A stretch of DNA of 64,000 nt, taken from positions 253,130-317,129 of the forward strand of contig NZ_LNQB01000083.1 in the NCBI RefSeq assembly GCF_001651875.1. Reading direction: 5' to 3'. Positions 31,353-64,000 of this stretch are shown here, piece by piece. The translations under genes and the position numbers were made by a program. Positions within the stretch are counted from its first letter, which is position 1. Each line of letters opens with the position of its first letter. The notes beneath the pieces were generated by a model. The model was not told where the DNA came from. It searched no databases and saw nothing but the letters and a program-made list of their open reading frames with translations. Origin of the DNA: Sinorhizobium saheli (lineage in GTDB: Bacteria; Pseudomonadota; Alphaproteobacteria; Rhizobiales; Rhizobiaceae).

Positions 31353-31384
31353 GAGCATCTTAAAACGAGGAGGCAGCGAAGCTG

Positions 31385-32440: not shown

Positions 32441-32452
32441 CACCCGCTGCCC

Positions 32453-33225: not shown

Positions 33226-33237
33226 CTGATTGCCCCT

Positions 33238-38011: not shown

Positions 38012-38049
38012 GATTGAGATTAATCAGCAGGTACACCGAGGGGGTGACA

Positions 38050-38568
38050 GTGCGCGGGATTGTCGACGGAGCGCGATGGTACTTTTCGCTAGTCCGGCCT
38101 AAACCAAACACGAGCCTCATCGATGGGACCGCCGAAGAGACGAGCCTGAATTATGTCTTCGACGACGCGACCCTCCAGGCAAAACCAAGAAGCCTGATCT
38201 CGGTCCTCGGCACGATGCCCGCCAATCTTGCCGAGGTTCTTGACACGGCGGTGCAGGCTTGTCGGGCCAATGCCGAATTGCCGGTGGTCGTCCTGTCCGA
38301 GCTGCGCCTGGATCTGATGGCGGCACGTTCCGCTCCACTGGAATTCATCCCGACGCGCCGGCACCTGCCGTCGCTCCCGGAGGAAAGCTACGGCAGGTAT
38401 GTTCGCCAGCGCTGGTCGCTGATCATGACAAAATGGGACATATCCCATGAAATCGCGCTGTCGCTGAGGATCGATGAATTTCTTGCAGAACAGGTCGGCG
38501 CCGAGATCACGCAGCAGCTTACGTGCGAGCAATCGAGGCATGCAAAGGACGGTCAGCCCGAATACTGA
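38050..38568 (+). CDS. Hypothetical protein downstream of the caspase gene
   Basis: About 172 residues, no signal peptide or membrane helix, no family recognised. Features include LIDGTAEETSLNYVFDD and a C-terminal charged region YGRYVRQRWSLIMTKWD. The GTG at 38050 has GAGGGGG about 5 bases upstream; a TTG at 38014 is possible but has no binding site. It follows the caspase gene by 38 bases on the same strand, suggesting one transcript. Its last 50 bases overlap the 3' end of the convergent glycosyltransferase gene. The opposite-strand frame here looks like a shadow. Confidence 0.5.
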   Translation: MRGIVDGARWYFSLVRPKPNTSLIDGTAEETSLNYVFDDATLQAKPRSLISVLGTMPANLAEVLDTAVQACRANAELPVVVLSELRLDLMAARSAPLEFIPTRRHLPSLPEESYGRYVRQRWSLIMTKWDISHEIALSLRIDEFLAEQVGAEITQQLTCEQSRHAKDGQPEY

Positions 38569-40780
38569 AGACGAGCTGCTCGATCGCCTTCGCGGCATCG
38601 ACGGCGCCATTGACGAATCCTAACCTCTTTGATCGCCGGCGAACCTCGGCCTGGAAGGGTTCAGACAGCGCCAGGTCGAGGCTCGCCTCCACCCTGTTCA
38701 GTTCGGAGTGTCGCAAGCACAGGCCCAAACCCGCCGACTGGGCATAGACAGCGCGAAGGTGCTGGTCGTCCATTTCCGGGGCCTCATTGGGCACGAAAAT
38801 CGAGGGCACTCCCCCAAAGATGCTTTCGTGGAAGCTGTTATATCCGGCATTGGTCACCAGCAGATCGATCGCCGAGAAACACTCCGCGAGTGGGTAAAGG
38901 CTCCTGCTTTGAACCCTCCACCTATCCTCCCTGCGGGGCCTGGCAAGCGGATTGAGGATCTGCACCGTCTGCACGCCCCGCCTTTCCAACCCGGCGAAAA
39001 TGAGTTCGGGCAGGGCTGCAAAGTCGAAGTTGCGCTGCGAGCCCAATTGTACCGCCACAGTGAAGCGGTTTGGATCGACGCCCAGCTTGGCCGCGGCTTC
39101 GCTCCGGGGCAAGCCCGAGCCCGGCTCCAGGAGGAGCAAGGGCGAGACGGCAACCGCGCCGGGCAGTTCGCGTGTCGGCCCGTGGTCCTCGTCATGAGCA
39201 AATTCGCCCGGCTCTATCACCATGTCGAATGCGCCTTGGGCGTCCGGATTGAACGCATGATCGACACGCCACAAGGCACGGCGTACCCAAACCCAGGCAA
39301 TATCAGGCCGGCTTTGGGCAACGGCGATCAGTCCCGGAAACGGCTTGTTCCCATCAAACACCACCGCCGAAACATCGAAAGCCTCCACCGCGCTCAGCAG
39401 CTCTTGCGCATACGCCTTGTTCCAGCTTTGGTCGGTAACGCCCAAGGCCAGGCCGCAAGGAATATAGTCCACGGCGTGACCGCGCGCAAAAACCAGGGCG
39501 GCTCCTGCTGATCTCGTGAAGAAAATAGGGTCGACGTCTTCGGACATACGCTCGGCGATGGCCATCAGGCGCGTGATGTGTCCCAGTCCTATGCCGTTCG
39601 TTGCAACGAAAAGTATCCGTCGCCTTTGGCCCAGACGCCTCGCCGGTGATCGGACCGCCCTGTCGTCGGCGTCGCTCCCATTCGAAAAACCAGTGACTGT
39701 CGTCCGGCTGTTTTTGAAGGCCGAAGGCGCGGGCAACTCCAGATCATCATAGAGGCGCCCCATGCGCTCCGGATATCGATCGATCGCAAATTTCCTCCGA
39801 ACAAGTTCTCTCGCGGCATTCGATTGCTCGACATAAGCGTGAGGCGAGGCCATGAAGCGTTCGATGACGTCCGCCGTTTCAGCAATATCGCAGTAGGCCG
39901 CACCCTCTTCGAAGAGATCCTTGAATGAGGGATCGAGCACCGTCACCAGACCGCTGGCCATTGCTTCCGCGGCGCACAGCCCGAACGCCTCCACCCAATG
40001 CCTGCTGTGGAAATAGACGTAAAAGTCCAGGCGACTGAGAAAGTCGGGCACGTTGCTTGCCCCAAAGGCACGGATTTCCCAGTTCGAACCGATCCACTGC
40101 TGGACTGCGTCGGGAACACCGCCCAAGACTTTGATATTGAAATCCGCCCTCTCGGGATAGGCCGCGCGGAGGTCGCCTGCGCTATCCGGCCATTTCATCG
40201 CGTCGGCTCTCGTGTGACGCCCCAGGGTGATTGCGCCTGCTGGCGCCTTTCTCCGGTGTTGCGTCCATTCGGCGAGGTCGACCATGTTCCACAGATCGTG
40301 CCGAAGAAGCTTGGGCCCGTGAGGGCCAAGGCCCTCATACTGAGATCTGACCTTTGGACCGACGGGAGCAAACACGACTGGCGCGCCAAAAAGGCGATCC
40401 AGAACACGCTCGATCACAGCGGGATCGTATTGCTGAACGTGTTGACCGTTGAACAGAGGATGATGAACCACGCATACGACACGACGGGGTCTCAACCGCA
40501 CCGGCGACTGCGGCATCCGCTCGAAGACGGCAGGATGGTGCGCCAGAAGAATGTCGCAGGTCGCCTGTTCTGATCCGGCCAGCCAATCGATGTTTGATTG
40601 CTCGATTGCCGCTGCCGTACGGCTGTCGAAGGCGCCTACCGGCGATCGTTGAGGTCCAAGAAACGGCAGCAGACCGCAGTTCAACTCCCAACGTCGCGCC
40701 GCCTTCAGTTCGGCTCTCAGTGCGCTCGACGTGCCGCCCTGAAATCGTGGATCGGCCGCATGGACAATGTCAAAGTGCAT
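38519..40780 (-). CDS. Two-domain glycosyltransferase (GT4-like plus MurG/GT28-like)
   Basis: About 753 residues in two glycosyltransferase halves. The N-terminal half starts HFDIVHAADPRFQGGTSSAL and ends with the GT-B donor-site type sequence EAMASGLVTVLDPSFKDLFE (about 310-335). The C-terminal half begins LFVATNGIGLGHITRLMAIA (about 415) and contains DLLVTNAGYNSFHESIFGG, as in MurG-type transferases. It is cytoplasmic, and the acceptor is unknown. The start is uncertain: 40780 begins the conserved region but lacks a good binding site; 40852 is the next in-frame ATG upstream. It converges on and overlaps the unknown ORF to its left. Confidence 0.65.
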   Translation of the reverse strand: MHFDIVHAADPRFQGGTSSALRAELKAARRWELNCGLLPFLGPQRSPVGAFDSRTAAAIEQSNIDWLAGSEQATCDILLAHHPAVFERMPQSPVRLRPRRVVCVVHHPLFNGQHVQQYDPAVIERVLDRLFGAPVVFAPVGPKVRSQYEGLGPHGPKLLRHDLWNMVDLAEWTQHRRKAPAGAITLGRHTRADAMKWPDSAGDLRAAYPERADFNIKVLGGVPDAVQQWIGSNWEIRAFGASNVPDFLSRLDFYVYFHSRHWVEAFGLCAAEAMASGLVTVLDPSFKDLFEEGAAYCDIAETADVIERFMASPHAYVEQSNAARELVRRKFAIDRYPERMGRLYDDLELPAPSAFKNSRTTVTGFSNGSDADDRAVRSPARRLGQRRRILFVATNGIGLGHITRLMAIAERMSEDVDPIFFTRSAGAALVFARGHAVDYIPCGLALGVTDQSWNKAYAQELLSAVEAFDVSAVVFDGNKPFPGLIAVAQSRPDIAWVWVRRALWRVDHAFNPDAQGAFDMVIEPGEFAHDEDHGPTRELPGAVAVSPLLLLEPGSGLPRSEAAAKLGVDPNRFTVAVQLGSQRNFDFAALPELIFAGLERRGVQTVQILNPLARPRREDRWRVQSRSLYPLAECFSAIDLLVTNAGYNSFHESIFGGVPSIFVPNEAPEMDDQHLRAVYAQSAGLGLCLRHSELNRVEASLDLALSEPFQAEVRRRSKRLGFVNGAVDAAKAIEQLVFSIRADRPLHASIART

Positions 40781-40890
40781 CAGCCAATCCGAAGGATGAT
40801 TTGAACTCCTGAGGCAACCATGCGCTCCCTGTTGCCGCTCGGCATCGCTCATATTGAAGCAATCCGGTGAAGGGCACCGATCGCCGAATG

Positions 40891-41211
40891 CTAATAGGCC
40901 GTTTGTCCGGACAAAGTCCGCCGATATTGAACCGGCAATTTGCGTACGGCGACAGGTTTCTTTTGGACCGTCGTCTTCAACCGGCTCACGGCCGAAGCTG
41001 CGTAGCAACTGCGCGGATACCTGCCGAGGAACGCTCTGTAGGACTCGCGCGTATTCAGCCTTTGGGCACTACGCCAGGCCGCAGATTCGGCGGCAGTGGG
41101 AGGCGTGTTTTGACAGTTGGTGCTTTCGGGTAGCGGTGGTGTCGAAGGCCGCCAGGACGGCACGCAGGCCGTCAGAAAGACCGAGAGGAGGACGGAAACA
41201 CGTTTCAACAT
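40891..41211 (-). CDS. Small lipoprotein
   Basis: A 106-residue protein with a lipoprotein signal (lipobox FLTAC, Cys about residue 16), then a proline-rich segment. A helical motif WRSAQRLNTRESYRAFLGRY is followed by PRSCYAASAVSRL. A similar motif (F-E-R-F-V-K-A-F-P-K-S-E-L-A-A-E-A-L) occurs in the caspase-like protein 4.5 kb away. The C-terminus is basic. AGGAG lies 10 bases before the ATG. Function unknown. Confidence 0.55.
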   Translation of the reverse strand: MLKRVSVLLSVFLTACVPSWRPSTPPLPESTNCQNTPPTAAESAAWRSAQRLNTRESYRAFLGRYPRSCYAASAVSRLKTTVQKKPVAVRKLPVQYRRTLSGQTAY

Positions 41212-41611
41212 ACGAGAACGTCTCCTACCGACAATAGTAAAGCACAGGTGCTAAAACTTGAAGTCTAACAGTATAGAAAATGCCTTCGCAAAACAAGCGC
41301 CAACCCATAAGTAATGCCGCGACAGACGTCTTTATCCCGGCTGAGCATAGCGCAGTTGAACCCGGATCACCACCGGTGCTGGCAAGGTTATCCCGCTCCG
41401 GATGTCAAGCGCCGCAATTCGAATGGCGACCATAAAAAGAATACACCAAAATATACCGGGCGCGCAGCTCGCCGGGATCAGCGGCGACAACGTGCCAAGG
41501 GATGACGTTGCAGGCGGCGCGCTCCAACTTTCCCCTCTCTCAGGAAAGCCGCCGGAGCGGCGCCTCGGGCCGCGCCGCCGAATGTCCACGAGCGGAATTG
41601 AATCCCGGGGG
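41212..41611. other. Intergenic region with no supported gene
   Basis: About 400 bases between two minus-strand genes. Reading frames here are short, overlapping and arginine- or serine-rich without a binding site or family match. The stretch around 41225-41290 is AT-rich and is the likely promoter of the small lipoprotein gene. I see no RNA gene or repeat in it. Confidence 0.4.
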
Positions 41612-42550
41612 TTATACGCTTTGAACCGTGCAGGCGTGACTCTCTTTCGCGCCCTTTAGCCGGGTGGCGAGACGCAGGATGTGCGACGCACCAACGCCGC
41701 AGCATCCGCCGATGATCGTCGCCCCGCTTTGAGCCCACTCGCAAGCGAAGTGGGAATAACGGTCGGCCGACAGGTCGTCGCGGATCGTGTGCAGGGTCTC
41801 ATTGGCCGCGCCATCTTCTTCGGCCGCGAAGGCATTGGCATAGACACCGATCTCGATGCGGCGCCCTTCCTTCGCAAAGGCGGCGCTGGCCGCCTCGAGG
41901 GCGCGCCGCATCACCTCCGGCCGGCTGCAGTTGAAGAGCAGCGCCGATGCTTCCGATCCGGCGATCCAGCGCGCGGCATCTGCAACGCTTTCGCCGGAAC
42001 GCAGCGACGCGGGCCGCATCTCCGCATCCGGGGCGTCCTCGAGCGTGAAGGAAATCCAGAACGGTTTGCCGCTTCCAGCCACCGCATTCTGCACCGCCTC
42101 GGCCTCGGCCACGAGGCTCAGCGTCTCCCCGACCCATAGATCGACGAAAGGGGCGAGTTCCTCGACCAGGACGCTGAGGTAATCCTGCACCAGATCCGGT
42201 TTGAACAGTTGCGGCTCATAGGAGCCGAAGACCGGCGGCAACGATCCGGCGACGAGCACCTTGCGGTCTGTCGCCGCGTCGGCGGCTTCGCGTGCCAGGC
42301 GACCGGCAAGGGCGATCAGCCTGCGTCCGTCGGTGCGAAAGCGCTCCTCGCCGATGTGGAACGGCACCAGCGCATAGCTGTTCGTGGTGACGACGTCCGC
42401 CCCTGCCGTGATGAATTCTTCATGCACCCGCCTGACGATCTGCGGGCTCTCCATCAGCGCAAGCGCCGACCATTCCGGCTGCCTGAGTTCTGCGCCGAGC
42501 CGGACAAGTTCGCGGCTCATGCCGCCGTCGAGGATTCTGATGGGGTTCAT
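41612..42550 (-). CDS. mmuM: Homocysteine S-methyltransferase family protein
   Basis: A 312-residue zinc enzyme. ILDGGMSREL opens the barrel, and the zinc-ligand cysteines appear in LLFNCSRPE (Cys about 205) and GGCCGVGASH near the C-terminus. Such enzymes move a methyl group from S-methylmethionine or similar donors to homocysteine, giving methionine. It is the last gene of the minus-strand transporter/PLP operon, 113 bases after the PLP enzyme gene. The symbol is by family resemblance; the true methyl donor cannot be read from sequence. Confidence 0.8.
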   Translation of the reverse strand: MNPIRILDGGMSRELVRLGAELRQPEWSALALMESPQIVRRVHEEFITAGADVVTTNSYALVPFHIGEERFRTDGRRLIALAGRLAREAADAATDRKVLVAGSLPPVFGSYEPQLFKPDLVQDYLSVLVEELAPFVDLWVGETLSLVAEAEAVQNAVAGSGKPFWISFTLEDAPDAEMRPASLRSGESVADAARWIAGSEASALLFNCSRPEVMRRALEAASAAFAKEGRRIEIGVYANAFAAEEDGAANETLHTIRDDLSADRYSHFACEWAQSGATIIGGCCGVGASHILRLATRLKGAKESHACTVQSV

Positions 42551-50957: not shown

Positions 50958-52904
50958 GTGATGGCCGGTAACGGTGCCGCCATGGCCGTCCGGCAGGGTG
51001 ATCCTGACGTTCTGCATCATTCCCTGGTCCTCATGGTCGAGAATGTGGCAATGCAGAACGAACTCGCCGATGTAGCGCTGGTAGCGTGTCCGCACGGTGA
51101 TCGTGTAGCGCGTCGAAGGATCGGTGCCGGGATTCTTGATCCACAGCGTGTCCTTCCAGACATTCTTCAGCCCTGGATATTGCGGATCGCCGTCGTCGTC
51201 CGCCCCGAGGGCGCTGACATCATTGCCGGCCGCATCGACGATCTTGATGATCTGGAACGGATTGACATGGATATGGAAAGGATGGCTGACGAAATCCGAC
51301 CTCAGCGTCCACTCGTCCAAGCCGTTCAACGGCAGCGTCCGGTCGATGCGGTTGGCATCATAGGGCTGGCCGTTGATCTCGAAGAAGGTGCCGCCCGGCT
51401 GCTTCACATCGATATTGAACACCAGTTGCTGCTGGCCCGTGACCTCGCCCGCTTCGATGTCCGGATGCGGAACAAAGCTTGAAAGCCGCATATCGTTCTT
51501 GAGGTCGTCGATGACCTTGCCGGCAACATCCGGCGCCATCGTGCGCTCGGCCGCCGAAATCAGCCAATCCTGCAGATATTTGGCAATCTCGCCATTGACG
51601 GCATCGCCGTCCACTGCCGTGACTATGCCGAGAAGTCGGCGGCTCGGAGCCTGCTGGTTGACGCTCGCCGCTGCCGGCGCGGCGGCATCGACGAGGCAGT
51701 AGTCACCGGCTGCGGGCAGCACCACCAACGCATCAACCCTGTAGCCCGGCTGCAGCACCGCCTGCTTCCGCATCTGCACCTGCGCCATTGTCAGCCCGTC
51801 CTGAGCCACCACGCCGTAGGGAATGACATCCTTGCCGCAATTCTGGTCGATCCATCGATCGGTGTCCGCCGCGGCAAGCGTGCCTAACGCGGCCGTGCCG
51901 ATCTTCCGCCGGATCTCGAAATTGATGGTGTCGCGAACGCCGGCATGGACCATCCGCCAGCGTTCGACCGATCCCGCCACCGCCGGCGCCAACTGGCCCA
52001 GCACCTGGCCGTTGATGCTGGTAAAGCGGCCCGAGGCCGGCCAAGTGCCAGGTCCGAACTGATCGTAGCTTTCGATGCCCCCCACCTGCCCTGGCTGGCA
52101 ATCATAGGTAATGTTGCCGTTGCTGTCGGTGCAGGCATATTGGATCTGCTGCAGCACCAGGACCCGCTCGGCGATATCGGAGCCGTCCGGCTGCTTCAGC
52201 AGGCGGTCGATGTCGCCGGTCTCCGTCGGGGTCGGCATGCGGTCGCCACGGATGATCAGCGCCCCGGACATGCCGCTCGATACCTGCAAAGCGGTCGATC
52301 CGTGCAGGTGCGGGTGATACCAGAAGGTGCCCGCCGGATGGTCGGCGGGAATGTTGTATTCATATTGGAAATCGATGCCGGGGCGGATCGAAACGAGCAC
52401 ATTGTCGCCATTGCCCGACGGATTCACCCAGAGACCGTGGGAATGCAGGTTCGTACCGTTGAAGCAATGGGGGGTGTTGGCACTGCCGCCGCCGATGCCG
52501 CAGGTCGAATCCTGAGGGAGCTTGTTGTTCAGCGTTACCCGCACCGTCTCGCCCGGGCGCACATCGATGGTCGGCCCAACCAGCGGCGTGTCGGCGCCGG
52601 ATGGGTCCGTTTGGCGGGCGTCCTGATAGCCGCGGAGCCTCACCCGGTCATAGCGCGCGGTGGCCGGATTGTAGATCTGGCGGTCGAGATATGTGACGTT
52701 CATGTCGAGCAGAACCTCGCCCGGAAAAGCCGCCCGGTCCTGCGCGAAGCTTTCCAGTTGCGCCCGCCCCTTGGCGACCGGCTCCAATATGTAGGCCGGC
52801 GGGTTGCTCACGGCCCTCGCCTCTTGAGCGGCCGCCGATAGCACATGGGTGGCCGAAAGAATGCTCGCCACGCCGAAGAGCGCGATTTTGTGAGATGCAA
52901 ACAA
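50955..52904 (-). CDS. Multicopper oxidase (laccase-like), exported
   Basis: About 649 residues. The signal peptide (FASHKIALFGVASILSATHV, then LSAAAQEA) directly follows a TTG at 52904 that has GGGGAGG 5 bases upstream; the frame is open to 53045 but without a better start. All copper motifs are visible: NLHSHGLW, FWYHPHLHG, HPFHIHVNPFQI and the C-terminal HCHILDHEDQGMM with type-1 ligands. It oxidises phenols, metals or similar electron donors with oxygen in the periplasm. It heads the cassette that includes the tyrosinase. Confidence 0.88.
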   Translation of the reverse strand: MFASHKIALFGVASILSATHVLSAAAQEARAVSNPPAYILEPVAKGRAQLESFAQDRAAFPGEVLLDMNVTYLDRQIYNPATARYDRVRLRGYQDARQTDPSGADTPLVGPTIDVRPGETVRVTLNNKLPQDSTCGIGGGSANTPHCFNGTNLHSHGLWVNPSGNGDNVLVSIRPGIDFQYEYNIPADHPAGTFWYHPHLHGSTALQVSSGMSGALIIRGDRMPTPTETGDIDRLLKQPDGSDIAERVLVLQQIQYACTDSNGNITYDCQPGQVGGIESYDQFGPGTWPASGRFTSINGQVLGQLAPAVAGSVERWRMVHAGVRDTINFEIRRKIGTAALGTLAAADTDRWIDQNCGKDVIPYGVVAQDGLTMAQVQMRKQAVLQPGYRVDALVVLPAAGDYCLVDAAAPAAASVNQQAPSRRLLGIVTAVDGDAVNGEIAKYLQDWLISAAERTMAPDVAGKVIDDLKNDMRLSSFVPHPDIEAGEVTGQQQLVFNIDVKQPGGTFFEINGQPYDANRIDRTLPLNGLDEWTLRSDFVSHPFHIHVNPFQIIKIVDAAGNDVSALGADDDGDPQYPGLKNVWKDTLWIKNPGTDPSTRYTITVRTRYQRYIGEFVLHCHILDHEDQGMMQNVRITLPDGHGGTVTGHH

Positions 52905-53375
52905 ACAAACCTCCCCAAGCCTCTGCGTATAATGCGAGAGCGAGACGGGCAGCCTTGACCAAGACATCAGTGATACCGGCAGACCTTCCGCTCGAAGTCC
53001 GAATATCACTTGATATCTGCCTGTTTGCAGAAGGTGTTGCCCCACCTATATTCTCGCCGCGGAAAATGTTAGCCGCGAAACCATGGATGGTTACAGGCGC
53101 GTTTACTTTTCAGCCTCGCAAACTACATAGCGCAAAGCGGTGTCTGGCGCATCCCTGCAAAACTACTGGTTGCGTCAAAATCCGGCCTGCACATCTTTTA
53201 GGATTGGAATTGAGGCAAAGCGAGCTGCGCGGGAGCGGATGCCGGTTCTTCCTGGAACAGCGGTCGATTCAAGCAGACTTGCGGTCGAAGAACGCGCTCA
53301 GCGATGGGCCCGAACCTGGCATTTGGAAGGGCGCCGGATTGCCCGTCCGGCGCGTCGCCGGACGGGCGTCGTCGA
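52905..53375. other. Intergenic region upstream of the multicopper oxidase gene
   Basis: About 470 bases. It holds the probable promoter of the multicopper oxidase gene, a small palindrome AACCAT-GG-ATGGTT (53079-53092) and, at its right end, the hairpin that ends the acetyltransferase gene. Frames present here are short and unsupported. Confidence 0.4.
53341..53367 (-). terminator. Hairpin terminator of the catB-type gene
   Basis: A perfect 12-base stem, GCCCGTCCGGCG (53341-53352) and CGCCGGACGGGC (53356-53367), with a 3-base loop, begins 9 bases after the acetyltransferase stop. There is no U-run, as is common for GC-rich alphaproteobacterial hairpins. Confidence 0.55.
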
Positions 53376-54011
53376 TCAGCCGCTTCGGCCGAATGAAGAC
53401 CAATGGCGGTAAAGTGCCTCCACGTCACCGCTCGTCAGAATCGGCATCGACGCCTTCAGCTGTTCGTCGGACCAATTCCACCATTTCATCTCCAGGAGCC
53501 GGCCGACTGCATGTTCATCGAACCGTTTGCGGATCGTCTTTGCGGGGTTTCCGCCGACGATGGCATAGGGTTCGACATCCCGTGTCACCAAGGCCCGTGT
53601 GCCGATCACCGCGCCGTCGCCGATCTTGATGCCCGGCATGATGATCGCTTCCGAACCGATCCAGACGTCGTTTCCAATCACCGTATCCCCGGCCGGTTGG
53701 TACCCGTTTTGCGCGCCCGCGAACTCAGGCACTTCGGACATCCAGTAAAATGGAAAGGTGCTGACCCAATCATTCCGGTGGCCCTGGTTGCCTGCCATGA
53801 TGAACGCCGCCCCTGACCCGATCGAGCAGAAGCTGCCAATGTAAAGCTTATCCGCATCCTCATCGGGGAGCAGATACCGGGCGCAATCGTCGAAGCTGTG
53901 TCCGTGGTAATAGCCCGAATAGTAGCTGTAGCGTCCAACGATGATGTTGGGGTTCGTAACCTGCTTGTCGAGCGTCATGCCCCTGAAGGGGCTTTCGAAA
54001 TAGTTCTCCAT
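53376..54011 (-). CDS. catB: Hexapeptide-repeat acetyltransferase, CatB/XAT family
   Basis: A 211-residue left-handed beta-helix acetyltransferase starting [20 protein letters not shown]. It contains [20 protein letters not shown], the catalytic-type His in [10 protein letters not shown], and hexapeptide repeats [20 protein letters not shown]. This is the xenobiotic acetyltransferase (type B chloramphenicol acetyltransferase) family and the length is exact for it. Many chromosomal rhizobial copies exist, and real antibiotic resistance is not certain. AGGAAG precedes the ATG at 54011. Confidence 0.88.
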
Positions 54012-54493
54012 CGAGTTTCTTCCTGCATGATCCCGTTGCCGCTCGCATCTGCGCAAGCGGAAGGAAGGCCAGAAGCCTTAAGCTCCTGACCGATGCTCCT
54101 CGCGTCAGCGCGGGAGCGAAATGCAGGTGGTACTCGGTGTCGATTTCATACCGTCCCAATAACCGACAATTGGCAAAAAGCCAACGGCCGTCGCGGCATT
54201 TTCGGGCTGCGACGCATGCGCCGGTTAGAGATGCGATCGCCGTCGGCTCTCGGTATAGAATGTTACAATGGAAGAAGGGGACGACGTGAAGCGTGGCTGA
54301 GCGGTGCCTCACGGGCCGGAGCCGGTTCTTGAAACGGCCCCCACTCGGGACGTCAAGTGCCCGCCACGCCGGGCAATCGCGCATTGAAGGCGCTCTTGAC
54401 GGTACAATCGCAGCTGGCTATAGCAGCAATATCTTGAGTCTATTACTCAAGATTATATCCGATGCAAAGAGCGAGCGCGAGGCCGGGACCCTT
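54012..54493. other. Intergenic region upstream of the siderophore operon
   Basis: A 482-base region between the divergent catB-type gene and the siderophore operon. It becomes AT-rich around 54415-54475 and there contains a perfect iron-responsive palindrome (54431-54453). No convincing small gene was found; the frame open from 54293 runs into the SbnI-like gene but lacks a good start before 54494. Confidence 0.5.
54431..54453. promoter_or_regulatory. Iron-responsive operator (RirA-type IRO box)
   Basis: A perfect inverted repeat with 9-base arms, ATCTTGAGT and ACTCAAGAT, around CTATT. It contains the exact TGA-N9-TCA pattern (TGA 54435-54437, TCA 54447-54449) described for the rhizobial iron regulator RirA. 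It lies 41 bases before the first siderophore gene, so it probably represses the operon when iron is plentiful. A Fur- or Irr-type use is less likely from the sequence. Confidence 0.72.
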
Positions 54494-54925
54494 ATGGAAT
54501 ATTGCCTTCTCTCACCAGCACGACTAACCCCCACGGAAGAGGTGAGCCTCGACAGGGTCGATGCATTGCAGGCCCAAATCCTGCGAGCGGGCTCATGGAC
54601 CGCGCCAATAGCGGTCGAGAAACACGCCCTGTTCGTGATGGACGGCCATCACCGGCTGACGGTTGCGCAGCGTCTCAGGCTCGCGATGGTGCCGGTCGTC
54701 CTCCTCGACTACGGTTCCGTGCGGGTGGAAGCTTGGCGCCCGGGCGAGAGCGTCTCGCCTGCGGAAATCTTTGCGATGGCCCGCAGCGGCCGCAAGTTTC
54801 CCTACAAGACGACCCGGCACATCTTCGCCGACGGCGCGCCGGCCTGCGATGTGCCGCTCGAGCTGTTGACCAGTCCCGCGCCGATGGACGTGGCGCCGCT
54901 CCGTTCCGCGGGGGCGCTCTCATGA
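54494..54925 (+). CDS. SbnI/SerK-like ParB-fold protein, probable free L-serine kinase
   Basis: A 143-residue ParB/Srx-fold protein with the motif [15 protein letters not shown] (about 49-63) and a C-terminal [12 protein letters not shown]. Both are features of SbnI and archaeal SerK, which make O-phospho-L-serine. It is shorter than SbnI (about 250 residues), lacking the C-terminal part. In staphyloferrin B synthesis O-phosphoserine feeds SbnA; the same use here is strongly suggested by the SbnA-like gene two places downstream. The binding site before 54494 is weak, and the stop overlaps the next start as ATGA. Confidence 0.7.
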
Positions 54926-56295
54926 CGCTGCATCCCCACAAGATCGACTCGGGCCTGCCACCGATCCTGCGCGCGGCGACGGCGGACCTTCTCACCCGGC
55001 ACGCGCCGCGTCTTCTCGACTGGGTCGCCCGCCACGGCTCGCCGCTCAATCTGGTCTGGCCGGACGCGCTCGAGGATAATCTTGCCGCCCTGAAAGACGT
55101 GCTGACCGGGCACCGTGTCGAGCACGTGATCTATTACGGGGCGAAGGTCAACAAATCGCCGGGTCTCATGCAGGCAGCGCTCAGAGCGGGCGCCGGCCTC
55201 GACGTCTCCAGCCTTTACGAACTCCGGGACGCAAGGAGGCTCGGGGCCGATGGCGCCCGGCTCGTGGCGACGGGGCCCGCGAAGACGAGCGAATTTCATC
55301 AGGAGCTGATCGCCTGCAACGCATTGATATCGGTGGACTCGCCGGAAGAGCTTGAGGACCTCATCGAAGGCCTGCCGGCAGACGCCCGCCCGCAGCCGAT
55401 ATTCCTGCGCCTGCGACCGCGGGACCAGAGGAAGAGCCGCTTCGGCATGCCGGCAGATGCGGTCGTTCATTGCCTCACGCGCCTTGCCGGCGAAAACAGG
55501 CTGCGCTTCGCCGGGCTGCATTTCCACGTCAGTGGCTATCGCTGGGAGACCCGCGTTGCCGCGCTGAGCGAGGCCGCCGACCTCGTCGCCGAAGCCCGGC
55601 GGATGGGATTTTCTCCGCGCATGATCGATATTGGCGGTGGCCTGCCCGTCCAATATGTCGACCAGGCGAGCTACGAAGCGCATCTCGCGGCGCAGGCGCC
55701 TGAGGACTACCGCACGGGGAAAAAACCGGACTCCTTCTATCCCTATGGCGGCCCTCTCTCGCCGGCCGATTGGCTGCACCGGCTCCTCGAGGCGGAGCTG
55801 CGCCAGGGGCGAAGCGTAGCCGACTATCTGAGGCGCGAAGGCCTCACGCTCGCGATGGAGCCCGGCCGGGCCCTCGCCGACCAGGCGGCGATCACCGTCT
55901 TCCGGATCTCGCGGGTGAAGGCGCTCGGCCCGGATTCGCACGTCATCTTTGTCGAAGGCAGCAGCTTCAGCGCCTGCGAAACCTGGTTCGCCTCCGAATT
56001 CCTGGTCGATCCGATCCTGGTGCCGGCCACGAGGCCGGCCGCCCAATCGCCGCCGATCCGCGCCTATCTCGCCGGCCACAGCTGCCTGGACGAGGACGTT
56101 CTCAGCAACAGATGGCTGCGCTTCCCCGCCGCACCAAACGCCGGTGACCTACTGGTCTATGCCAATACCGGCGGCTACCAGATGGATCTCCTTGAAAACG
56201 AATTCCATCGCCACCCCATGCCTGCCCGCCTCTGCGTCATGAAGGACGCGGAAGGTCAACCCATTCTCGTTCGCGACACAATTGGAGAGGTTTAG
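54922..56295 (+). CDS. SbnH-like PLP decarboxylase (alanine racemase / DapDC fold)
   Basis: A 457-residue fold-type III PLP decarboxylase. The PLP lysine is in [14 protein letters not shown] (about 73), followed by [36 protein letters not shown], the dimer-interface Cys in HSCLDEDVL and the substrate Tyr in [10 protein letters not shown]. SbnH decarboxylates a citryl-Dap intermediate; in this locus it could remove the carboxyl of a Dap-type adduct to leave an ethylenediamine unit. It is fused by overlap to the kinase gene and abuts the SbnA-like gene. Confidence 0.82.
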
Positions 56296-57306
56296 ATGCT
56301 GCACACGACCGTAACGCAACTGATCGGCCAGACGCCGGTCATGTCGATCGACGTACCGGGCCGCAACGCCACCCTGGTCTTGAAGATCGAGAAGAACAAT
56401 CCCGGCGGCTCCATGAAGGACCGCATGGCGCGCAGCATGGTGGTTGCGGCGCTTGAGGACGGGCGCCTCGCACCGGGCGGCACGATCGTTGAATCATCGT
56501 CCGGAAATACCGGCACGGGGCTGGCGCTGGCGGCGCTGGAATTCGGCCTGCGCTTCATTGCGGTGGTGGATCACCATGCGGCGCCCGACAAGATCCGAAT
56601 GATGCGGGCGCTGGGGGCCGAGATCCGCTATGTCGAAGGCGACTTTCGCGAGGATGAGGTCGCCGTCGTCGAGCGCCAGCGCCTGGCCGCGCAGCTCGGG
56701 GCGCAGCTTCCGGGCGCGCTGTTCATGAACCAGTCCGACAACCCGGCAAATCCCGAAGGCTATGCCGGCCTCGTGGACGAACTCCTCGCCCAGCTTCCGA
56801 ACGGCATCGACGCCTTTGTCGGCTGCGTCGGGACCGGCGGCTCGATGACCGGGATTTCCCAGCGCCTCAAGCGCCACAATCCGGCGGTGCGCACCATTGC
56901 CGTCGAACCGGCGGGCTCCATCGTCTTCGGCAAACCGGGGCACCCCTATTACCAGTCCGGAACGGGCACGCCAGCCGGCGACGAGGTCGGCAAGGTGCTC
57001 GACTATGGCTGCATCGACGAAGGCGTGCAGGTGACCGACACGCAAGCCTTCGAGACGGCACGGTATATCGCCCGGCGCAAGGGGCTGCTCGTCGGCGGCT
57101 CGACCGGCGGCGCCATCTACAAGGCACTGGAATTCATTGCTGCGGGCAAGCTCACCGGCACGGTCGTCACCACGGTCGCCGATGGCGGCGAGAAATATCT
57201 GGGCACGATCTTCGACGAGGAGTGGATGGCGAAGCGCCGCCTGCTCGATCCGGCAATCGCTGCCCAGCTGGATGGCTGGCTCCTCGCAGAGGCGCGGGCC
57301 GCATGA
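56296..57306 (+). CDS. SbnA-like PLP-dependent beta-replacement synthase
   Basis: A 336-residue cysteine-synthase-fold enzyme. The PLP lysine is in NNPGGSMKDRMAR (about 41), the phosphate loop in ESSSGNTGTGLAL (about 72) and GCVGTGGSMTGI binds PLP phosphate. SbnA joins O-phosphoserine with the amine of glutamate; here another amino acid such as lysine may be the nucleophile. GGAGAGG precedes the ATG, and the stop overlaps the next ATG as ATGA. Confidence 0.82.
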   Translation: MLHTTVTQLIGQTPVMSIDVPGRNATLVLKIEKNNPGGSMKDRMARSMVVAALEDGRLAPGGTIVESSSGNTGTGLALAALEFGLRFIAVVDHHAAPDKIRMMRALGAEIRYVEGDFREDEVAVVERQRLAAQLGAQLPGALFMNQSDNPANPEGYAGLVDELLAQLPNGIDAFVGCVGTGGSMTGISQRLKRHNPAVRTIAVEPAGSIVFGKPGHPYYQSGTGTPAGDEVGKVLDYGCIDEGVQVTDTQAFETARYIARRKGLLVGGSTGGAIYKALEFIAAGKLTGTVVTTVADGGEKYLGTIFDEEWMAKRRLLDPAIAAQLDGWLLAEARAA

Positions 57307-58442
57307 AGGTGACCATTTGCGGCGCGGGCCGCACCGGACATTTGAATGCGGTCCTGTTCAAGCAGGCCCTGGGGATCGAGGTTTCTGTCCTGACCACCTC
57401 CACTGCGGTCGCCTCGCGGTGGGCAAGCGGGGACGATCCCTGGCAAGCGGAGACGCGGGACGGCTGCGTCCTGAGTGCCAGGCCGGACTACGTCGGAACC
57501 GATCCGAGCGAGGCCCTCGTCAACGCCGACATGGTCCTCATAACGCAACCCGCCCAGGCAAGACCGGCGCTCTTGCAGCGCATGGCACCGTATTTGCCGA
57601 CGGACAAAAGCGTCTATGTCGGCGCAATTCCCGGCTTTTGCGGCTTCGACTGGCTGGCGGCAAAGGCGCTGTCGGGGCGTGACAACGCGGTGATCTGGGG
57701 CATGAAGGACGTGCCCCATATCGCCTATGACCTGGTTGCAGGCCGGCGCGTGCGAATGGGCGGCGCCAAGGCGGAACTCTTCGTTGCCCTGCATCGCCGC
57801 GAAAGCGCGGCGAGCGGTGCCGCGCTCGTGGCGATGCTGAACCGCCTCTACGAGGCGCCCGTCACCCTGCTCAGGGACTATCTCGAAATCACGCTGACGC
57901 CGGGCAACGCGCTGATGCACCCGGCCGTGCTCTACGCGCTGATCGGCCCCGGCGCGCCTTTTGAAAAGAAACCGTTTGACGAACCCCTGTGCTGGTGGAC
58001 CGACTGCCCGCAGGCGGGCGCCGAGCTCCTGGAAGCGTGCGACGCGGAAAACCAGGCGATCCGCCGGGCAAGCGAGGCGCGGCTCGGCATTGATCTCAGC
58101 TCCGTCAAGCCGCTTCGGCAGGAACTGATCGAGGCCTATGGCGACCAGATCGAGGATGACCGAACCATGTACACGCTTCTGCGCACCAATCGCGCCTATG
58201 CGGGCATTCTTGCCCCCCTCGTTCCGAACCCGAATGGCCAGGGGCTCGTCATCGATCGGGAAAGCCGCGCCTTCCATGAGGATATCGCTTTCGGGCAGGC
58301 GCTGCTCGTCGCGATGGCGGAGCGGCTCGACGTGGCAGTACCGGCGATCGCAAAGACCTATCGCTGGGCGCGCGACTACCACGGCCAGTTGGCCACGGGC
58401 ACACCGGACTATGTGCCTGCCCGCTGGCCGGAGGCCGCGTGA
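57303..58442 (+). CDS. Opine/octopine-type NAD(P)-dependent dehydrogenase
   Basis: A 379-residue enzyme with an N-terminal Rossmann domain (KVTICGAGRTGHLNAV) and a C-terminal opine-dehydrogenase domain containing the catalytic-type His in TPGNALMHPAVLYALIG. Opine dehydrogenases join an amine and a 2-oxo acid by reductive amination, as in octopine or staphylopine formation. Its presence instead of SbnB suggests that the amine from the previous steps is coupled to pyruvate or 2-oxoglutarate. It overlaps both neighbours by a few bases. Confidence 0.83.
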   Translation: MKVTICGAGRTGHLNAVLFKQALGIEVSVLTTSTAVASRWASGDDPWQAETRDGCVLSARPDYVGTDPSEALVNADMVLITQPAQARPALLQRMAPYLPTDKSVYVGAIPGFCGFDWLAAKALSGRDNAVIWGMKDVPHIAYDLVAGRRVRMGGAKAELFVALHRRESAASGAALVAMLNRLYEAPVTLLRDYLEITLTPGNALMHPAVLYALIGPGAPFEKKPFDEPLCWWTDCPQAGAELLEACDAENQAIRRASEARLGIDLSSVKPLRQELIEAYGDQIEDDRTMYTLLRTNRAYAGILAPLVPNPNGQGLVIDRESRAFHEDIAFGQALLVAMAERLDVAVPAIAKTYRWARDYHGQLATGTPDYVPARWPEAA

Positions 58443-60328
58443 TGGACGAGAGGACTCCTTCCGTGACGACCCCCGTCGAGGGCGAAGAGCTTGCGCTTTT
58501 CAACCGGGCATCACGCAACGCGATCAACCGGTTGGTGCGCTGCCTCTTCGCCGAGCGCCTGCTCGAGCCGGAGGCATTGCTGTGGGCGCGGGACGGCCGC
58601 CAGGCCTGGTTCCCGCTCTGGGCCTCGCGGCGTGTGCTGCACTTCACCGATCTCAACCTCGCGCCCGCCGGAACCTTGCGGAACCGCGGGCAGATCGAAG
58701 TGTTTGACGGTACCGCAAGGCGGCAAAGGATCGATGGCCCCGCCGCCCTGATGCGCGAGGTCGCCCCCTCGCTTGCGATCATGCCTGCTCCCGATGGTTT
58801 GGAGCACCTGTTGCGCGACGTGGATGACAGCATCCGCAACGACATGCTGGCTCGCCGCGAGCGCGAGTGCTGGAGCGCCGCGCTGCGCGACAAGATCGCA
58901 GAAGCAGGTGCGTCCGGCTTCCTCGCCTATCTCCAAGTAAGCATGCGGCCGCATCTGGCCGCGATGACCCTCGACCAGTGGGGCGCCCTCGAAGGCCATC
59001 CCTTCTACCCGACCTGGAAGGCCAAGCCCGGCTTGCCGCCGCAGGAGGTCGCCGCACTCTCGCCCGAGTTCGGCGCGCGCGTGCGCCTGCGGATCGCGGC
59101 GCTGCGCAGTGACTGGGCTTACGTCGAGAAGATGCCGCATGTGCCAAGCTATTCGCACTGGTTCGCCGAGAACTTCCCGGACCTCTGGAGCGATTGGGCG
59201 GAGCGCCTGAAGGCGCGGGGCCGGTCGCCCGAGGGCTGGCTGCCGCTGCCCGTGCACGCCTGGCATCTGGAGAACTTCGTGCGGCGCGAATTCGCGGCAG
59301 AGATCGCGGCCGGCATCTTCGATCCGGACGGACCGGAGATCGTGACGTTGCCGTCCATGTCGTTCCGGACGATGCTGCCGGAGACCGAAGCGCCGCGCCC
59401 CTTCATCAAGCTGCCGGTTGCGATCTGGATGACGAGCGAGCAGCGCACGCTGCAGGCGAAGTCGATCCATATGGGGCCGCGCCTCAGCACGCTGATTTCC
59501 GACATTCTCTCGAAGGAGGATGATATTGGAAGCGGGCTGGAGATCTTCACCGAAGAGGTGGGCGCGATCCTGCACCATCCGGAGACGGGCGACGAGCATC
59601 CCGGCCGCTTCCTGTCGGTGGTCTATCGCCACACGGATGCTCTCGCCCGCGAGGACGGCCTGCTGCCGGTGACCGTCGCGGCGCTGCTGACGGCGGGCCC
59701 GCTCGACGGCCGACCGCTCGTTTGCGAGCTCATCGCCCGAAACGGCGATGAAAGCGAAGCGGCCGTCGCGGCCTTCTTCCGCGCCTATGCGCAGATCGTC
59801 GTCCGGCCGGTGATGGCCATGTATCTGCTCTACGGCATTGCCTTCGAGGCGCATCAGCAGAACAGCACGATCCTCTTCGACGATCGCGGCCTGCCGCGCA
59901 AGCTGCTGATCCGCGACTTCGGCGACGGCCGCAGTTTCGCGCCGCTCTTCAAGGAGCGCGGCTACGAGCTGAAGCCCTTCAGTCGCAAGGGCATTCTGCC
60001 GACCACCTTCGACGACGATATCAGCCTCGTGCGCTCCTTCGTCATCGATGCCTGCTACGTCTGCCACCTTCACGAGGTCGCGCTTTGCCTCACCGAGGAA
60101 TACACGTTGGCCGGCGACACCCTGTGGGGCATCCTGCGAGAAGAGACGGAAGCGGCCTTCGAGGCGCTGCGGCCGCGCATGCTGTCGGATGCGTTCTGGA
60201 CCGAGGAGCGCGAGGCCTTCCTCGAACGGCCCTGGCCGACGCGCTCGGTCCTGACCATGCATCTGGAGCGCTATCGCGATTACCGGGTGGAGCATCACCT
60301 GCCCAATCCGCTGGCGAGCGCGCAATGA
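58442..60328 (+). CDS. IucA/IucC-family NIS siderophore synthetase
   Basis: About 628 residues, the usual length. NIS motifs: [18 protein letters not shown] (about 279-296), [35 protein letters not shown], and [19 protein letters not shown], then IRDFGDG. These enzymes adenylate a carboxylate such as citrate or malate and form an amide with an amine or hydroxylamine. It is the only NIS synthetase in the operon, so one carboxylate is probably added. ATG at 58442 has GGAGG 7 bases upstream; GTG at 58439 is possible. Confidence 0.9.
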
Positions 60329-61554
60329 CGGGCACAGTCGCCGTCCTGCGCGGCTTCGGACCGGTCTTCGCGCTGCTTTTCGGCCTGCAGTTCATCTCCA
60401 TGGGCGCGATGGAGATGAGCGGCCCGTTCTGGCCGATCCAGGTCAGGGCCTTGAGCCCCTCCGAAAGCGTCTTCGCCCTCGCCGGCATCGGCGTCTATGT
60501 CTGCCCCATGCTCGGCGTGTCGCTGACCAGCGCCTTCTGGGGCCGCATGGGCGACCGCTACGGCAACCGCCTGATGATGGTGCGGGCCCTGGCGGGATTG
60601 GCGGTCACGCAACTGCTCGTCGCCCTTGCGCAGGACGTCTGGACCATCCTGGCGTTGCGCTTTCTGCAAGGCGCCTGCGCCGGCTATATCGCCCCGGCCC
60701 AGGCCTACGGCGTCGAGGTCACCGCCGGGCGCGATCGGGCCGGCCTCTTCGCCTGGCTCCAGGTGGCGACCAATGTCGGATCTCTCGGCGGCGCCTTCCT
60801 CGGCGGCCTCATCCTCGATGCCCTGCCATTCGCGGCCGTCAATCTCACCGCGGGCGTGATCTGCGCCCTCTGCGCCGGCGTCGCCTGGACACGCCTTCCG
60901 GTTCCGCCACAAGGAGCAAGCGGCGCCGGACCGAGAAAGGCTGCGGCAGCATCCCGCGCCGCTTCGCCCGGCATATCCGTGCCCGGGATTCTCCTGCTGA
61001 TGGGATTGCTGCTCATGAGCCGGATGGTGCTGCAGGTGCCGTTCGCCCTCTACATGACCGAGGTCTATGGCGCTCGGCATTGGATCACGGGCCTGAGCTA
61101 CGGGCTCCTTGCCTTCGGCTTCGTGGTCGGCGCGCCGGTCTGGGCACGGCTGTTTTCGGGACGCGCCCCGGCCTTCGTGCTCGGGTGGAGCGTGCTGATC
61201 GCCGCCGCCTGCCTTCTGGTCACGGGCCTCGCCGGCGCGACCCGCGACCTTGGCCTCTTCGCCGCGCTTTATCTTGCCTGGGGCGCGCTTCTGGGGGGAA
61301 CGACCCCAGTCCTCCTGTCGCTCGTTTCGGCCGCGACGCCGAGCGACCGGCAGGGCTCGATGCTCGGGCTCGCGCAAACCTGCCAGCAAGGCGCTTCCGT
61401 GGCGGGGATCATCACCGGCGTCGTCGCGACCCAGCATTTCGGGCTCGAGGTCGCATTCCCGCTCGTTTCAAGCCTCTACGGCCTGTCGGTTCCGGTGGCG
61501 CTCGCCCTTTGGCTCAACGCGCGCCGGTCAATAAACAAAGGAGAACAATCGTGA
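60325..61554 (+). CDS. MFS exporter, siderophore efflux type
   Basis: A 409-residue MFS transporter with about 12 helices and the cytoplasmic-loop motif [13 protein letters not shown] near residue 76. Its place between the NIS synthetase and binding-protein genes fits export of the finished siderophore (compare SbnD-type exporters). It overlaps the synthetase gene as ATGA and the next gene as GTGA. Confidence 0.85.
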
Positions 61555-62699
61555 GGAGAATACGCGCGGCGTTTACAGCTGTGATCGCCGTCCTGGTCCT
61601 ATGGGTCCCCATGGCCCTCGCCGACGAAAGCCAGGCCCCCATCACCGTTACCGACATCGCCGGCCGCGAGGTGACGATAAACGCGCCGGTCAAGCGCATC
61701 CTTCTTGGCGAGGGGCGGCAACTCTATCTGATCGCCTCGCTTGACAAGGAAGATCCGTTGTCGCGCGTCGTCGCCTGGCGCAATGACCTGATCGAGGCCG
61801 ATCCGGCCACCTATACCCAATATCTCCAGGCCTTTCCCAAGCTCGCCAAGCTGCCGGCCTTTCCCGGGCAGGAGAACGGGTTGATCGAAATCGAGTCGAC
61901 GATCGTCCACAAGCCCGACGTCGTCCTTCTCAATCTCGAGGCCATGCGCGCCAACGAGGATGCCAACTATATCGAGAAGCTGGCGGAGCTGAAGATACCC
62001 GTCCTCTACATCGACTTTCGGCATTACCCGCTGAAGAACACGGAACCAACGATCCGCCTGCTCGGCAAGATCATGGGGCGCGAGGCGCGCGCCGAGGAAA
62101 TCATCGCATTTCGCCACGCGGCGATGGCCCGCGTCACCGACGTCATCGCCCGGGCGAAACCGGAGCGACCCAGGGTTTTCATCGAAAGGATCGGCGGCTA
62201 TGCCGATGATTGCTGCCTTTCCTTCGGCGCGGAGAACTTCGGCAAATATGTCGAGCTCGCCGGCGGCCACAATATCGGCAGCGACGTCCTTCCCTCGACC
62301 TTCGGGCAACTCAACCCGGAGCAGGTGATCGCCGTCAATCCCGAGCATGTCGTCGTCACCAGCGCCGACTGGGAGGCCTATGTGCCCGGCGGCCATTGGA
62401 TCCCGCTCGGCCCCGGCGCCGACCCGAAGGAGACGCACCGGAAGCTGGAATGGTTCACCACCCGCGACGCCTATACCGACATCGCGGCACAGAAAGCGCG
62501 GAATTTCCACGGTATCTGGCACCAGTTCTACAACAGCCCCTACGAGTTCTTCGCCGTCCAGCAACTGGCGAAATGGTTTCACCCGGAGCTTTTTGCCGAT
62601 CTCAATCCGGACGCAACCTTTGCCGAGTATCACCGCCGCTTCCTGCCGATCCCCTACAGGCCCGGTTACGCCGTCAGCCTTTCCGGCAGCGCCGATTGA
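61551..62699 (+). CDS. Periplasmic ferric-siderophore binding protein (FecB/BtuF family)
   Basis: A 382-residue binding protein with signal peptide ([20 protein letters not shown]; cleavage around residue 25) and the metal-chelate-binding domain: [20 protein letters not shown], then [12 protein letters not shown] and [17 protein letters not shown]. It hands the ferric siderophore to an inner-membrane ABC transporter, but no permease or ATPase gene for it is in the window. The GTG at 61551 has AAAGGAG 7 bases upstream. It ends the siderophore operon. Confidence 0.88.
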
Positions 62700-62888
62700 C
62701 GGCATAGGCAAAGCCGAGCCAGCCCTGGTCAAACCCGGTGGGGATCGGGGTTGGGTACAAGCGGACACAACGGTCGCCAACGGGCGAGGTTCTCAATTCC
62801 GAGAGCCTCGCCCTTGCTTTGTGCGGCGGCGAGGCAGCGGCACTTTCAGGAAGTCGATGGCCTTCGATTCCCCGTCCATCAAACAGCA

Positions 62889-62917
62889 GGAAGCGCCGGC
62901 CACAGGCCGGCGCTTCC
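62889..62917. terminator. Bidirectional terminator of the siderophore operon and receptor gene
   Basis: A perfect 13-base stem, GGAAGCGCCGGCC (62889-62901) and GGCCGGCGCTTCC (62905-62917), with loop ACA, lies in the 260-base gap between the converging binding-protein and receptor genes. Confidence 0.75.
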
Positions 62918-62959
62918 ATGGAGATCACCAATAGGGGCCGGTCGCGGCGACCCCCACGA

Positions 62960-64000
62960 TCAGAAATCAGTCGTCATCGATACCTTCACGGTCAGCGGCG
63001 CACCTTGCGATATCGTCCCGAAGCTCGCGACGCCGGACCAATAGTCGAGGTCGAAGACATTCTCGACCGACGCGCGGAAGGTGACGGGCTTCTCATGGAT
63101 CTCGGTCAGGTAACGCGCGCCGAGGTCAAGCCGCGTCCAGGAAGGGATTTCCTGGGTATTCGCGGTGTTCACGAACTGCTCGTCCGTGTGGATGACATTG
63201 CCGGTGAGCGTCAGGCCCGGCATGAAGGGCGTATCCCACTCCGCACCCAAATTGACCTGCAGCGCCGGCACGCCGATCGGCGTATTGCCGCGCTCTGTAT
63301 CGACATTCGTTTTCGTGATCTCGCCATGAATGAGGGTCACGCCGCCGAGTACCCGAACCTCCGGAGTTACTTCGCCGAACAGGTTCAACTCCACCCCGCG
63401 GTTGCGCTGTTCGCCGCCTTCGACGAAGACCAGACCGCCGCCGCGCGCCTCGAGCACGCCGAAGGGCTTTTCGATCTGGAAGGCGCTGACGGTCACCGCC
63501 ACCCGGCCGAGATCGACCTTGGTGCCGATCTCGTACTGCCTGGACCGGTAAGGCGCAAGCGTTTCGCCTGAATTGATCGCCGTCGTCGGTGCGGTATCGC
63601 CGACGCTCAAGCCCTCGACGTAGTTGGCGTACAGCGCAACATTGTCCCACGGCTTGACGACAATGCCGGCGAGCGGCGTCAACGCGCTTTCGTCGGAGGA
63701 GGAGGAAACGGCGCCGGTGGCCGGGTTGTAGTTTTCGGTGTCGATGTGCTGCCAGCGGCCACCGAGCGTCAGTTGCACCCGCTCGTCGAGCATCGACATC
63801 GTGTCGGACAGCGCGAAACCATGGAACATGTTTTCCGATATCCTCGGCACATGCGTCGGCTCCGGCACGTCCTGCTCGGGGCGCGGGAGCGGATCGAAGA
63901 TATTGGTCAGCTGCGCGGTTCCTGAATTCGAGCCGCGAGCGAGGCGCTGCTGAAGCCCGCTGACCTGGAATGTGACCGAATGGTCTATGGCCGCCGTCTC
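62960..64000 (-). CDS. TonB-dependent siderophore receptor, C-terminal part (runs off the right edge)
   Basis: The frame is open from 64000 to the stop at 62960, giving about 346 residues of the beta-barrel of a TonB-dependent siderophore receptor. Recognisable strands are ERVQLTLGGRWQHIDTE, LTPLAGIVVKPWDNVALYAN, YRSRQYEIGTKVD and RASVENVFDLDYW, ending in V-S-M-T-T-D-F with a terminal Phe, the outer-membrane assembly signal. Signal peptide and plug domain lie outside the window. It converges on the siderophore operon and is its likely cognate receptor. Confidence 0.9.
   Translation of the reverse strand, partial: ETAAIDHSVTFQVSGLQQRLARGSNSGTAQLTNIFDPLPRPEQDVPEPTHVPRISENMFHGFALSDTMSMLDERVQLTLGGRWQHIDTENYNPATGAVSSSSDESALTPLAGIVVKPWDNVALYANYVEGLSVGDTAPTTAINSGETLAPYRSRQYEIGTKVDLGRVAVTVSAFQIEKPFGVLEARGGGLVFVEGGEQRNRGVELNLFGEVTPEVRVLGGVTLIHGEITKTNVDTERGNTPIGVPALQVNLGAEWDTPFMPGLTLTGNVIHTDEQFVNTANTQEIPSWTRLDLGARYLTEIHEKPVTFRASVENVFDLDYWSGVASFGTISQGAPLTVKVSMTTDF

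Follow-up and report, generated by a model that had tools for sequence, protein, structure and literature searches.

Which molecule is made by an operon that combines genes for a serine kinase, two pyridoxal 5'-phosphate (PLP) enzymes and an opine dehydrogenase with a single IucA/IucC gene is the question raised by a 64,000-nucleotide (nt) stretch of Sinorhizobium saheli DNA (contig NZ_LNQB01000083.1), the whole of which is called the window here. The operon comprises seven genes at window positions 54494-62699, in which adjoining open reading frames meet end to end or share a few bases, and is faced by a gene for a TonB-dependent receptor (Table 1). An earlier note, made from the sequence alone, had listed these eight genes in this order and had predicted a rhizobactin-type siderophore; all eight are present, the families assigned by Pfam and NCBIfam matches of the eight locus proteins agree, and the facing receptor is borne out. 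We consider it likely that this operon serves to make rhizobactin, to export it and to bring it back into the cell, on correlative support (that from the producer Pseudomonas sp. FEN included) which consists of the gene set, its linkage, the catalytic residues, the presence of the set in FEN and a mass balance.

The connection to a molecule comes from Pseudomonas sp. FEN, the supernatant of which was reported to contain rhizobactin (C15H27N3O8, m/z 378.1866, by high-resolution mass spectrometry and tandem mass spectrometry) together with more abundant rhizobactin B (C16H29N3O8, m/z 392.2020), whose citramalate and alanine units were covered by two-dimensional nuclear magnetic resonance (NMR) (PMC7676072). 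The FEN locus (L076) holds all biosynthetic genes of the set, and the S. saheli proteins are identical to their FEN counterparts at 51% (decarboxylase), 71% (SbnA-like protein), 54% (dehydrogenase), 52% (synthetase of the IucA/IucC type, nonribosomal peptide synthetase-independent siderophore synthetase, NIS), 50% (major facilitator superfamily transporter, MFS) and 43% (SerK-like protein) of positions. Exactly one IucA/IucC gene is present in the FEN genome, adjoining the dehydrogenase gene inside the set. The passages on biosynthesis in the FEN paper mention only homologues of rhbA and rhbB and leave the route open (PMC7676072); use of a rhizobactin 1021-like cluster by FEN is unsupported, as its one NIS gene lies in the present set.

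In the proposed route, the small SerK-like kinase would phosphorylate serine to O-phosphoserine, which the SbnA-like enzyme would couple to the alpha-amine of lysine to give N-(2-amino-2-carboxyethyl)lysine. The PLP decarboxylase would then strip the serine-derived carboxylate, leaving N2-(2-aminoethyl)lysine with its ethylenediamine unit, the octopine-type dehydrogenase would join the new amine reductively to pyruvate (the alanine unit), and the single NIS would attach malate to the epsilon-amine of lysine. Export would fall to the MFS protein and uptake of the iron complex to the TonB receptor and the binding protein, with a RirA-type box turning the operon on at low iron. Lysine plus a serine unit minus CO2 plus pyruvate (reductive) plus malate gives a computed C15H27N3O8 with MH+ 378.1871, and citramalate in place of malate gives MH+ 392.2027; the enzyme set accounts for every rhizobactin unit and for the formula. 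When amino acids, keto acids and carboxylates were passed through this route in 840 combinations, with each enzyme used once, nine gave the rhizobactin formula and eight that of rhizobactin B. The chemistry predicted by the earlier note is thus supported both by a rhizobactin producer with the same enzyme set and by a formula reached with one use of each enzyme.

We infer that lysine and malate are the substrates in the S. saheli strain. A rhizobactin-like siderophore built from another amino acid (e.g., ornithine) or another keto acid is improbable: sequence cannot tell substrate choice, identity to the FEN proteins is 43-71% and the rhizobactin formula is shared by those nine combinations, but the catalytic and most pocket positions are conserved in the family and, once the alanine (pyruvate) and citramalate units are taken from the NMR data, lysine is the sole fit for rhizobactin B, the FEN product, among 24 amino acids.

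The genes also keep together in other genomes. With the dehydrogenase alone as query, the best 80 of 92 relatives in genome contigs were taken as the locus set, in which some loci end at contig ends and 31 (L002-L032) are of rhizobial type. The genes for the decarboxylase, the SbnA-like protein and the IucA/IucC protein lie beside that for the dehydrogenase in all 80, and the MFS gene does so in 79, the exception (L065) being truncated where its contig stops; the SerK-like gene occurs in 77, the TonB receptor gene in 75 and the binding-protein gene in 69. This association of genes exceeds chance.

The kinase aligns to both ends of SerK, of which the middle is missing, and appears to be a compact form of SerK/SbnI, which refines the assignment in the earlier note. 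The catalytic Glu30 of SerK (altered in the E30Q and E30A structures) corresponds to its E15, kept in 80 of 81 alignment rows, and residues of the DGHHR and KTTRH regions are nearly invariant across rows. An AlphaFold model (predicted local distance difference test score 87.8) matched nine PDB entries at an expectation (E) value of at most 0.001, all of them SerK or SbnI structures, so that the modelled fold and the catalytic Glu both point to a SerK/SbnI-type kinase. In the decarboxylase, the PLP lysine K74 is found in 85/85 rows and C351/E352 in 84/85, and the score against the LysA model is 106 bits (cut-off 297.9). The SbnA-like protein likewise keeps its PLP lysine, with K41, N71 and R127 in all 85 rows; it reaches 239.8 bits against TIGR03945 (SbnA), under the cut-off of 349.95, and is thus not assigned to the SbnA equivalog. 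All proteins score under the NCBIfam curated cut-offs and are therefore relatives, not members, of the named equivalogs; this includes the MFS protein, with the rhizoferrin exporter FslB as best model (132.9 bits, cut-off 600), and the binding protein (249 bits against the ferrichrome/ferrioxamine B binding-protein model, cut-off 374).

Octopine dehydrogenase, which uses pyruvate, is the nearest solved relative of the dehydrogenase (3c7a, E 3e-37), and its H212, R324 and D329 correspond to H206, R322 and D327, present in 85/85 rows. An opine zincophore of the staphylopine type was considered and rejected, as the Pfam matches include neither a nicotianamine-synthase-like protein nor a staphylopine-type dehydrogenase and the dehydrogenase is of the PF02317 octopine type. 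A separate 37%-identical octopine-type dehydrogenase is encoded on a Rhizobium plasmid (L096:7992-9203) next to aminotransferases, a phosphocholine cytidylyltransferase and a CDP-alcohol phosphatidyltransferase, and appears from these neighbours to represent another, non-siderophore use of the family.

The NIS is the only PF04183 match in the S. saheli genome. AsbB is its best solved relative, and the closest NCBIfam model is FslA (273 bits, cut-off 1000), followed by SbnF (103) and SbnC (66). These values bear on a staphyloferrin B-type product, for which the SerK/SbnI-like, SbnA-like and decarboxylase genes, common in kind, could speak; set against it are the FslA-nearest NIS, the one genomic NIS instead of three, and a cluster in which no protein corresponds to SbnB or SbnG and an opine dehydrogenase is present instead, which leave that product with hardly any probability at all. 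The earlier note had named this logic, with enzymes for glutamate and citrate, as the contrary case, and the single genomic NIS, the absence of an SbnB-family protein among the eight and the absence of a lyase nearby do not match it.

Which carboxylate the NIS would add to the rhizobactin backbone may be indicated by a further gene. The FEN and Proteus mirabilis clusters carry an HpcH/HpaI lyase with RipC as best NCBIfam model (160.8 and 154.6 bits, cut-off 375) and a lower score for CitE; RipC is a citramalyl-CoA lyase, the C-C lyase in itaconate degradation. A RipC-like gene stands beside the cluster in 30 of the 80 loci, including 21 from Pseudomonas, eight from Pectobacterium/Samsonia and one from Bosea (L069), and was found in none of the 31 rhizobial-type loci, nor in the window or its 20-kb neighbourhood (L094); the plasmid copy of S. 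meliloti AK83 is without it as well. Since the lyase accompanies the FEN cluster and the main FEN product contains citramalate, the citramalate form is predicted for clusters with the lyase, and the malate form, rhizobactin itself, for the window and the rhizobial-type loci. Two chemical data points agree with this rule, FEN and, reportedly, Rhizobium meliloti DM4.

The same lysine-ethylenediamine-alanine backbone with a carboxylate other than malate (citrate, 2-oxoglutarate or the citramalate of rhizobactin B) is unlikely, though the least so of the alternatives. FEN makes citramalate-containing rhizobactin B as main product and also the malate form, so a synthetase of this kind can accept both (PMC7676072), PbtA of P. 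mirabilis has been classed with type B synthetases, with 2-oxoglutarate as recognized substrate, in the review section concerned (PMC11026637), and two distant lyase homologues elsewhere in the S. saheli genome (33% and 32% identity) could supply citramalate; yet the RipC-like gene is missing from every rhizobial-type locus, as it is from the window and its surroundings.

Iron control of rhizobactin synthesis would rest on a palindromic TTGA-N9-TCAA, a candidate iron box of the RirA/IRO type. Its core TGA-N9-TCA starts 59 nt before the SerK-like gene, and the same core lies 53-67 nt ahead of the kinase gene in 19 of the 31 rhizobial-type loci and 54 nt ahead of it in S. meliloti AK83, against a background of 244 in 3411 stretches of 250 nt (7.2%). 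At that place it was not found in the remaining 12 rhizobial-type loci, i.e., seven from Bradyrhizobium, two from Leisingera, L026, and L004/L005, which are a copy of the type III secretion locus of Sinorhizobium fredii NGR234 (98.6% DNA identity). RirA is an Rrf2-family protein, and three Rrf2 proteins above the cut-off are encoded in the genome. A role in sulfur or cysteine metabolism, or as a zinc-binding opine, has very little probability: Y4xP, a close relative of the SbnA-like protein, is described as a cysteine synthase in the part of PMC3973906 that treats it, and an octopine-type dehydrogenase is present, but the NIS, exporter, siderophore receptor and binding protein stand in one unit, with an iron-type box and iron-regulated pbt relatives.

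Several of these observations weigh against rhizobactin as the product, namely the two lyase homologues, the type B class of PbtA, the box-less loci and the published Y4xP assignment, and others have to be added. The tie between cluster and product is a correlation even in FEN, the identity to the FEN proteins is such that substrates may differ, and the FEN genome is a draft with 31 condensation-domain matches, so nonribosomal peptide synthetase (NRPS) systems are present in FEN as well. Rhizobactin itself is no peptide product, and the S. saheli genome (5.99 Mb, 102 contigs, 99.88% complete) gave no match to an NRPS condensation domain. The decarboxylase and the NIS lie far under every curated cut-off. 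The SbnA-like protein scores 235.9 bits against cystathionine synthase, nearly as close as to SbnA, and in a profile search against solved structures, cystathionine synthases came ahead of SbnA. Of the O-phosphoserine selectivity residues R132, Y152 and S185 named for SbnA in the relevant part of PMC12414870, it keeps the arginine and has Ser and Gly for the other two. The SbnA-like coupling is the least well supported step of the proposed pathway.

Table 1. Features of the S. saheli siderophore locus, in positions of the whole 64,000-nt window; the continuation of the receptor gene is given as a window-equivalent position in the same contig
Feature	Position	Strand	Basis or remark
Iron-box candidate TTGA-N9-TCAA, palindromic	54434..54450	.	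RirA/IRO-type
Mini free-serine kinase, SerK/SbnI type, 143 amino acids	54494..54925	+	SerK match at both ends, fold
Fold-III PLP decarboxylase, Y4yA family, diaminopimelate-decarboxylase relative	54922..56295	+	Family match, PLP lysine
Beta-replacement PLP synthase, SbnA/cystathionine synthase/cysteine synthase family (Y4xP family)	56296..57306	+	
Octopine-type opine dehydrogenase, Y4xO family	57303..58442	+	PF02317 4.9e-27
NIS (IucA/IucC) siderophore synthetase, Y4xN/PbtA family	58442 (or GTG 58439)..60328	+	PF04183 + PF06276
MFS transporter, predicted exporter	60325..61554	+	FslB best NCBIfam model
Periplasmic siderophore-binding protein, start codon uncertain	about 61527..62699	+	PF01497 4.9e-10
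TonB-dependent siderophore receptor, convergent	62960..64000, to window-equivalent 65101	-	PF00593

Read past the window end in the same contig, the receptor in full has 713 amino acids with a Plug domain. No ATP-binding cassette (ABC) permease was found within the operon, and three strong FecCD permeases are encoded on other contigs. Directly upstream of and divergent from the operon lies a hexapeptide-repeat acyltransferase gene (window 53376-54005, - strand), preceded by adjacent genes for a tyrosinase with a twin-arginine translocation signal and a multicopper oxidase (window 48678-50291 and 50955-53045, - strand). Downstream of the receptor, an AI-2E family transporter is encoded whose 700 amino acids make it about double its Pfam domain in length (L094:16581-18683, - strand, window-equivalent about 69951-72053). 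Farther upstream, window positions about 30000-47500 resemble part of a Sinorhizobium americanum plasmid (DNA identity about 87%, half of the query covered), where the annotation lists VgrG of type VI secretion along with PAAR-like and caspase-family proteins.

The gene set is patchy in its distribution and often plasmid-borne. The dehydrogenase was detected at E <= 1e-60 in 9 of 297 genomes drawn from the family, the S. saheli genome counted, and matched 46 plasmid records, with an identity of at least 48% in 43. With the NIS as query (E <= 1e-30), only 45 of 72,556 plasmid records matched; among the rows listed, NIS of other types, outside the group, show 22-27% identity. The set is also present on accessory plasmids of S. 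meliloti; rhizobactin is reportedly known from Rhizobium meliloti strain DM4 and not from 1021, which such plasmids would fit. Plasmids NZ_CP017104, NZ_CP006879 and NZ_CP080528 carry an NIS gene (74-77% identity) outside the list of dehydrogenase matches and may hold partial copies, and in Agrobacterium vitis (CP146241.1, 522539-522643) only the last 35 NIS residues are found, under a ParB N-terminal domain annotation, possibly as a remnant. A class-V aminotransferase-fold gene, perhaps for tailoring, occurs in 21 of the 80 loci (e.g., L076:12834-14498) and on a Serratia plasmid (L093:12495-13679).

Among known systems, rhizobactin 1021 (rhb) resembles the proposed product in name and as an NIS siderophore of Sinorhizobium. 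It is a citrate hydroxamate whose synthesis takes two NIS enzymes, and this assignment was rejected because the S. saheli genome has one NIS gene. Triabactin, with an operon described in the pertinent section of PMC10080011 as only NIS, MFS and receptor genes, is a different system. The staphyloferrin B (sbn) pathway is alike in kind in its serine kinase, SbnA-type coupling and PLP decarboxylation but has SbnB, SbnG and two to three NIS, in contrast to the opine dehydrogenase and one NIS of S. saheli; an sbn-like cluster has been noted in Methylobacterium aquaticum 22A (PMC9301485, in the part concerned). The FEN cluster differs by its RipC-like lyase, its class-V aminotransferase-fold gene and an extracytoplasmic function sigma factor/FecR pair. 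If the proposed pathway holds, it would provide the genes for an aminopolycarboxylate siderophore known for decades and a new NIS wiring, in which SbnA-type coupling and decarboxylation build ethylenediamine and an opine dehydrogenase, not SbnB, finishes the backbone; ferric rhizobactin-type ligands are also relevant to how organic matter in soils and peat gives up its iron.

The comparison with published clusters that the earlier note had called for finds the gene set already in print as pbt and y4yB-y4xM, with no structure given in the parts of the sources consulted; of value is the proposed link from genes to molecule. In an open-access search, with subscription literature mostly outside it, no paper tying either gene set to rhizobactin was found among those listed, and none naming both proteobactin and rhizobactin or both rhizobactin and opine dehydrogenase. 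The locus is of this cluster type, with linked decarboxylase, PLP synthase, dehydrogenase and NIS genes and 47-97% identity to the named relatives, and by identity values its NIS falls in the PbtA/Y4xN group.

The pbt cluster of P. mirabilis was assigned to proteobactin (Himpsl 2010, via the review PMC11026637), for which the review's account gives no structure, only a predicted hydroxycarboxylate. It likewise encodes a decarboxylase, PLP synthase, octopine-type dehydrogenase, NIS, MFS protein, binding protein, ParB/SerK-like protein and TonB receptor, and the five core proteins of S. saheli are 47-67% identical to their counterparts (NIS 48% over 98% of its length). It differs in having the NIS and receptor genes first and in carrying the lyase PbtI, which the window lacks; the same account describes adjacent ABC transporter genes, iron-regulated pbt genes and PbtA placed beside Y4xN (PMC11026637).

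Another relative is the plasmid copy of NGR234, y4yB-y4yA-y4xP-y4xO-y4xN-y4xM (pNGR234a, L095), with the same six genes in the same order, 85% identity in the NIS (Y4xN) and 88% in the dehydrogenase; y4xN also has a copy on pNGR234b. The pNGR234a genes are flanked by nopX and nopL within the type III secretion locus (L095 = NC_000914.2 77281-107164, genes at 10053-17098), without a binding protein or receptor there and without the iron box. Situated downstream of tts box 8, these genes respond to apigenin with a 53-83-fold induction (PMC10970691, Table 4), and the passage on them in PMC3973906 speaks of a curious group with an enigmatic role. We hold it somewhat more probable than the reverse that the gene family as a whole is the rhizobactin pathway, with proteobactin as rhizobactin B or a close analogue, the RipC-like lyase (PbtI) setting citramalate versus malate, and S. 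fredii y4yB-y4xM making a flavonoid-induced rhizobactin in symbiosis. Proteobactin would thereby gain a testable structure, and the enigmatic gene group in a nodulation-linked secretion locus would be accounted for by a siderophore made on a plant signal, a new idea for the y4yB-y4xM genes of NGR234.

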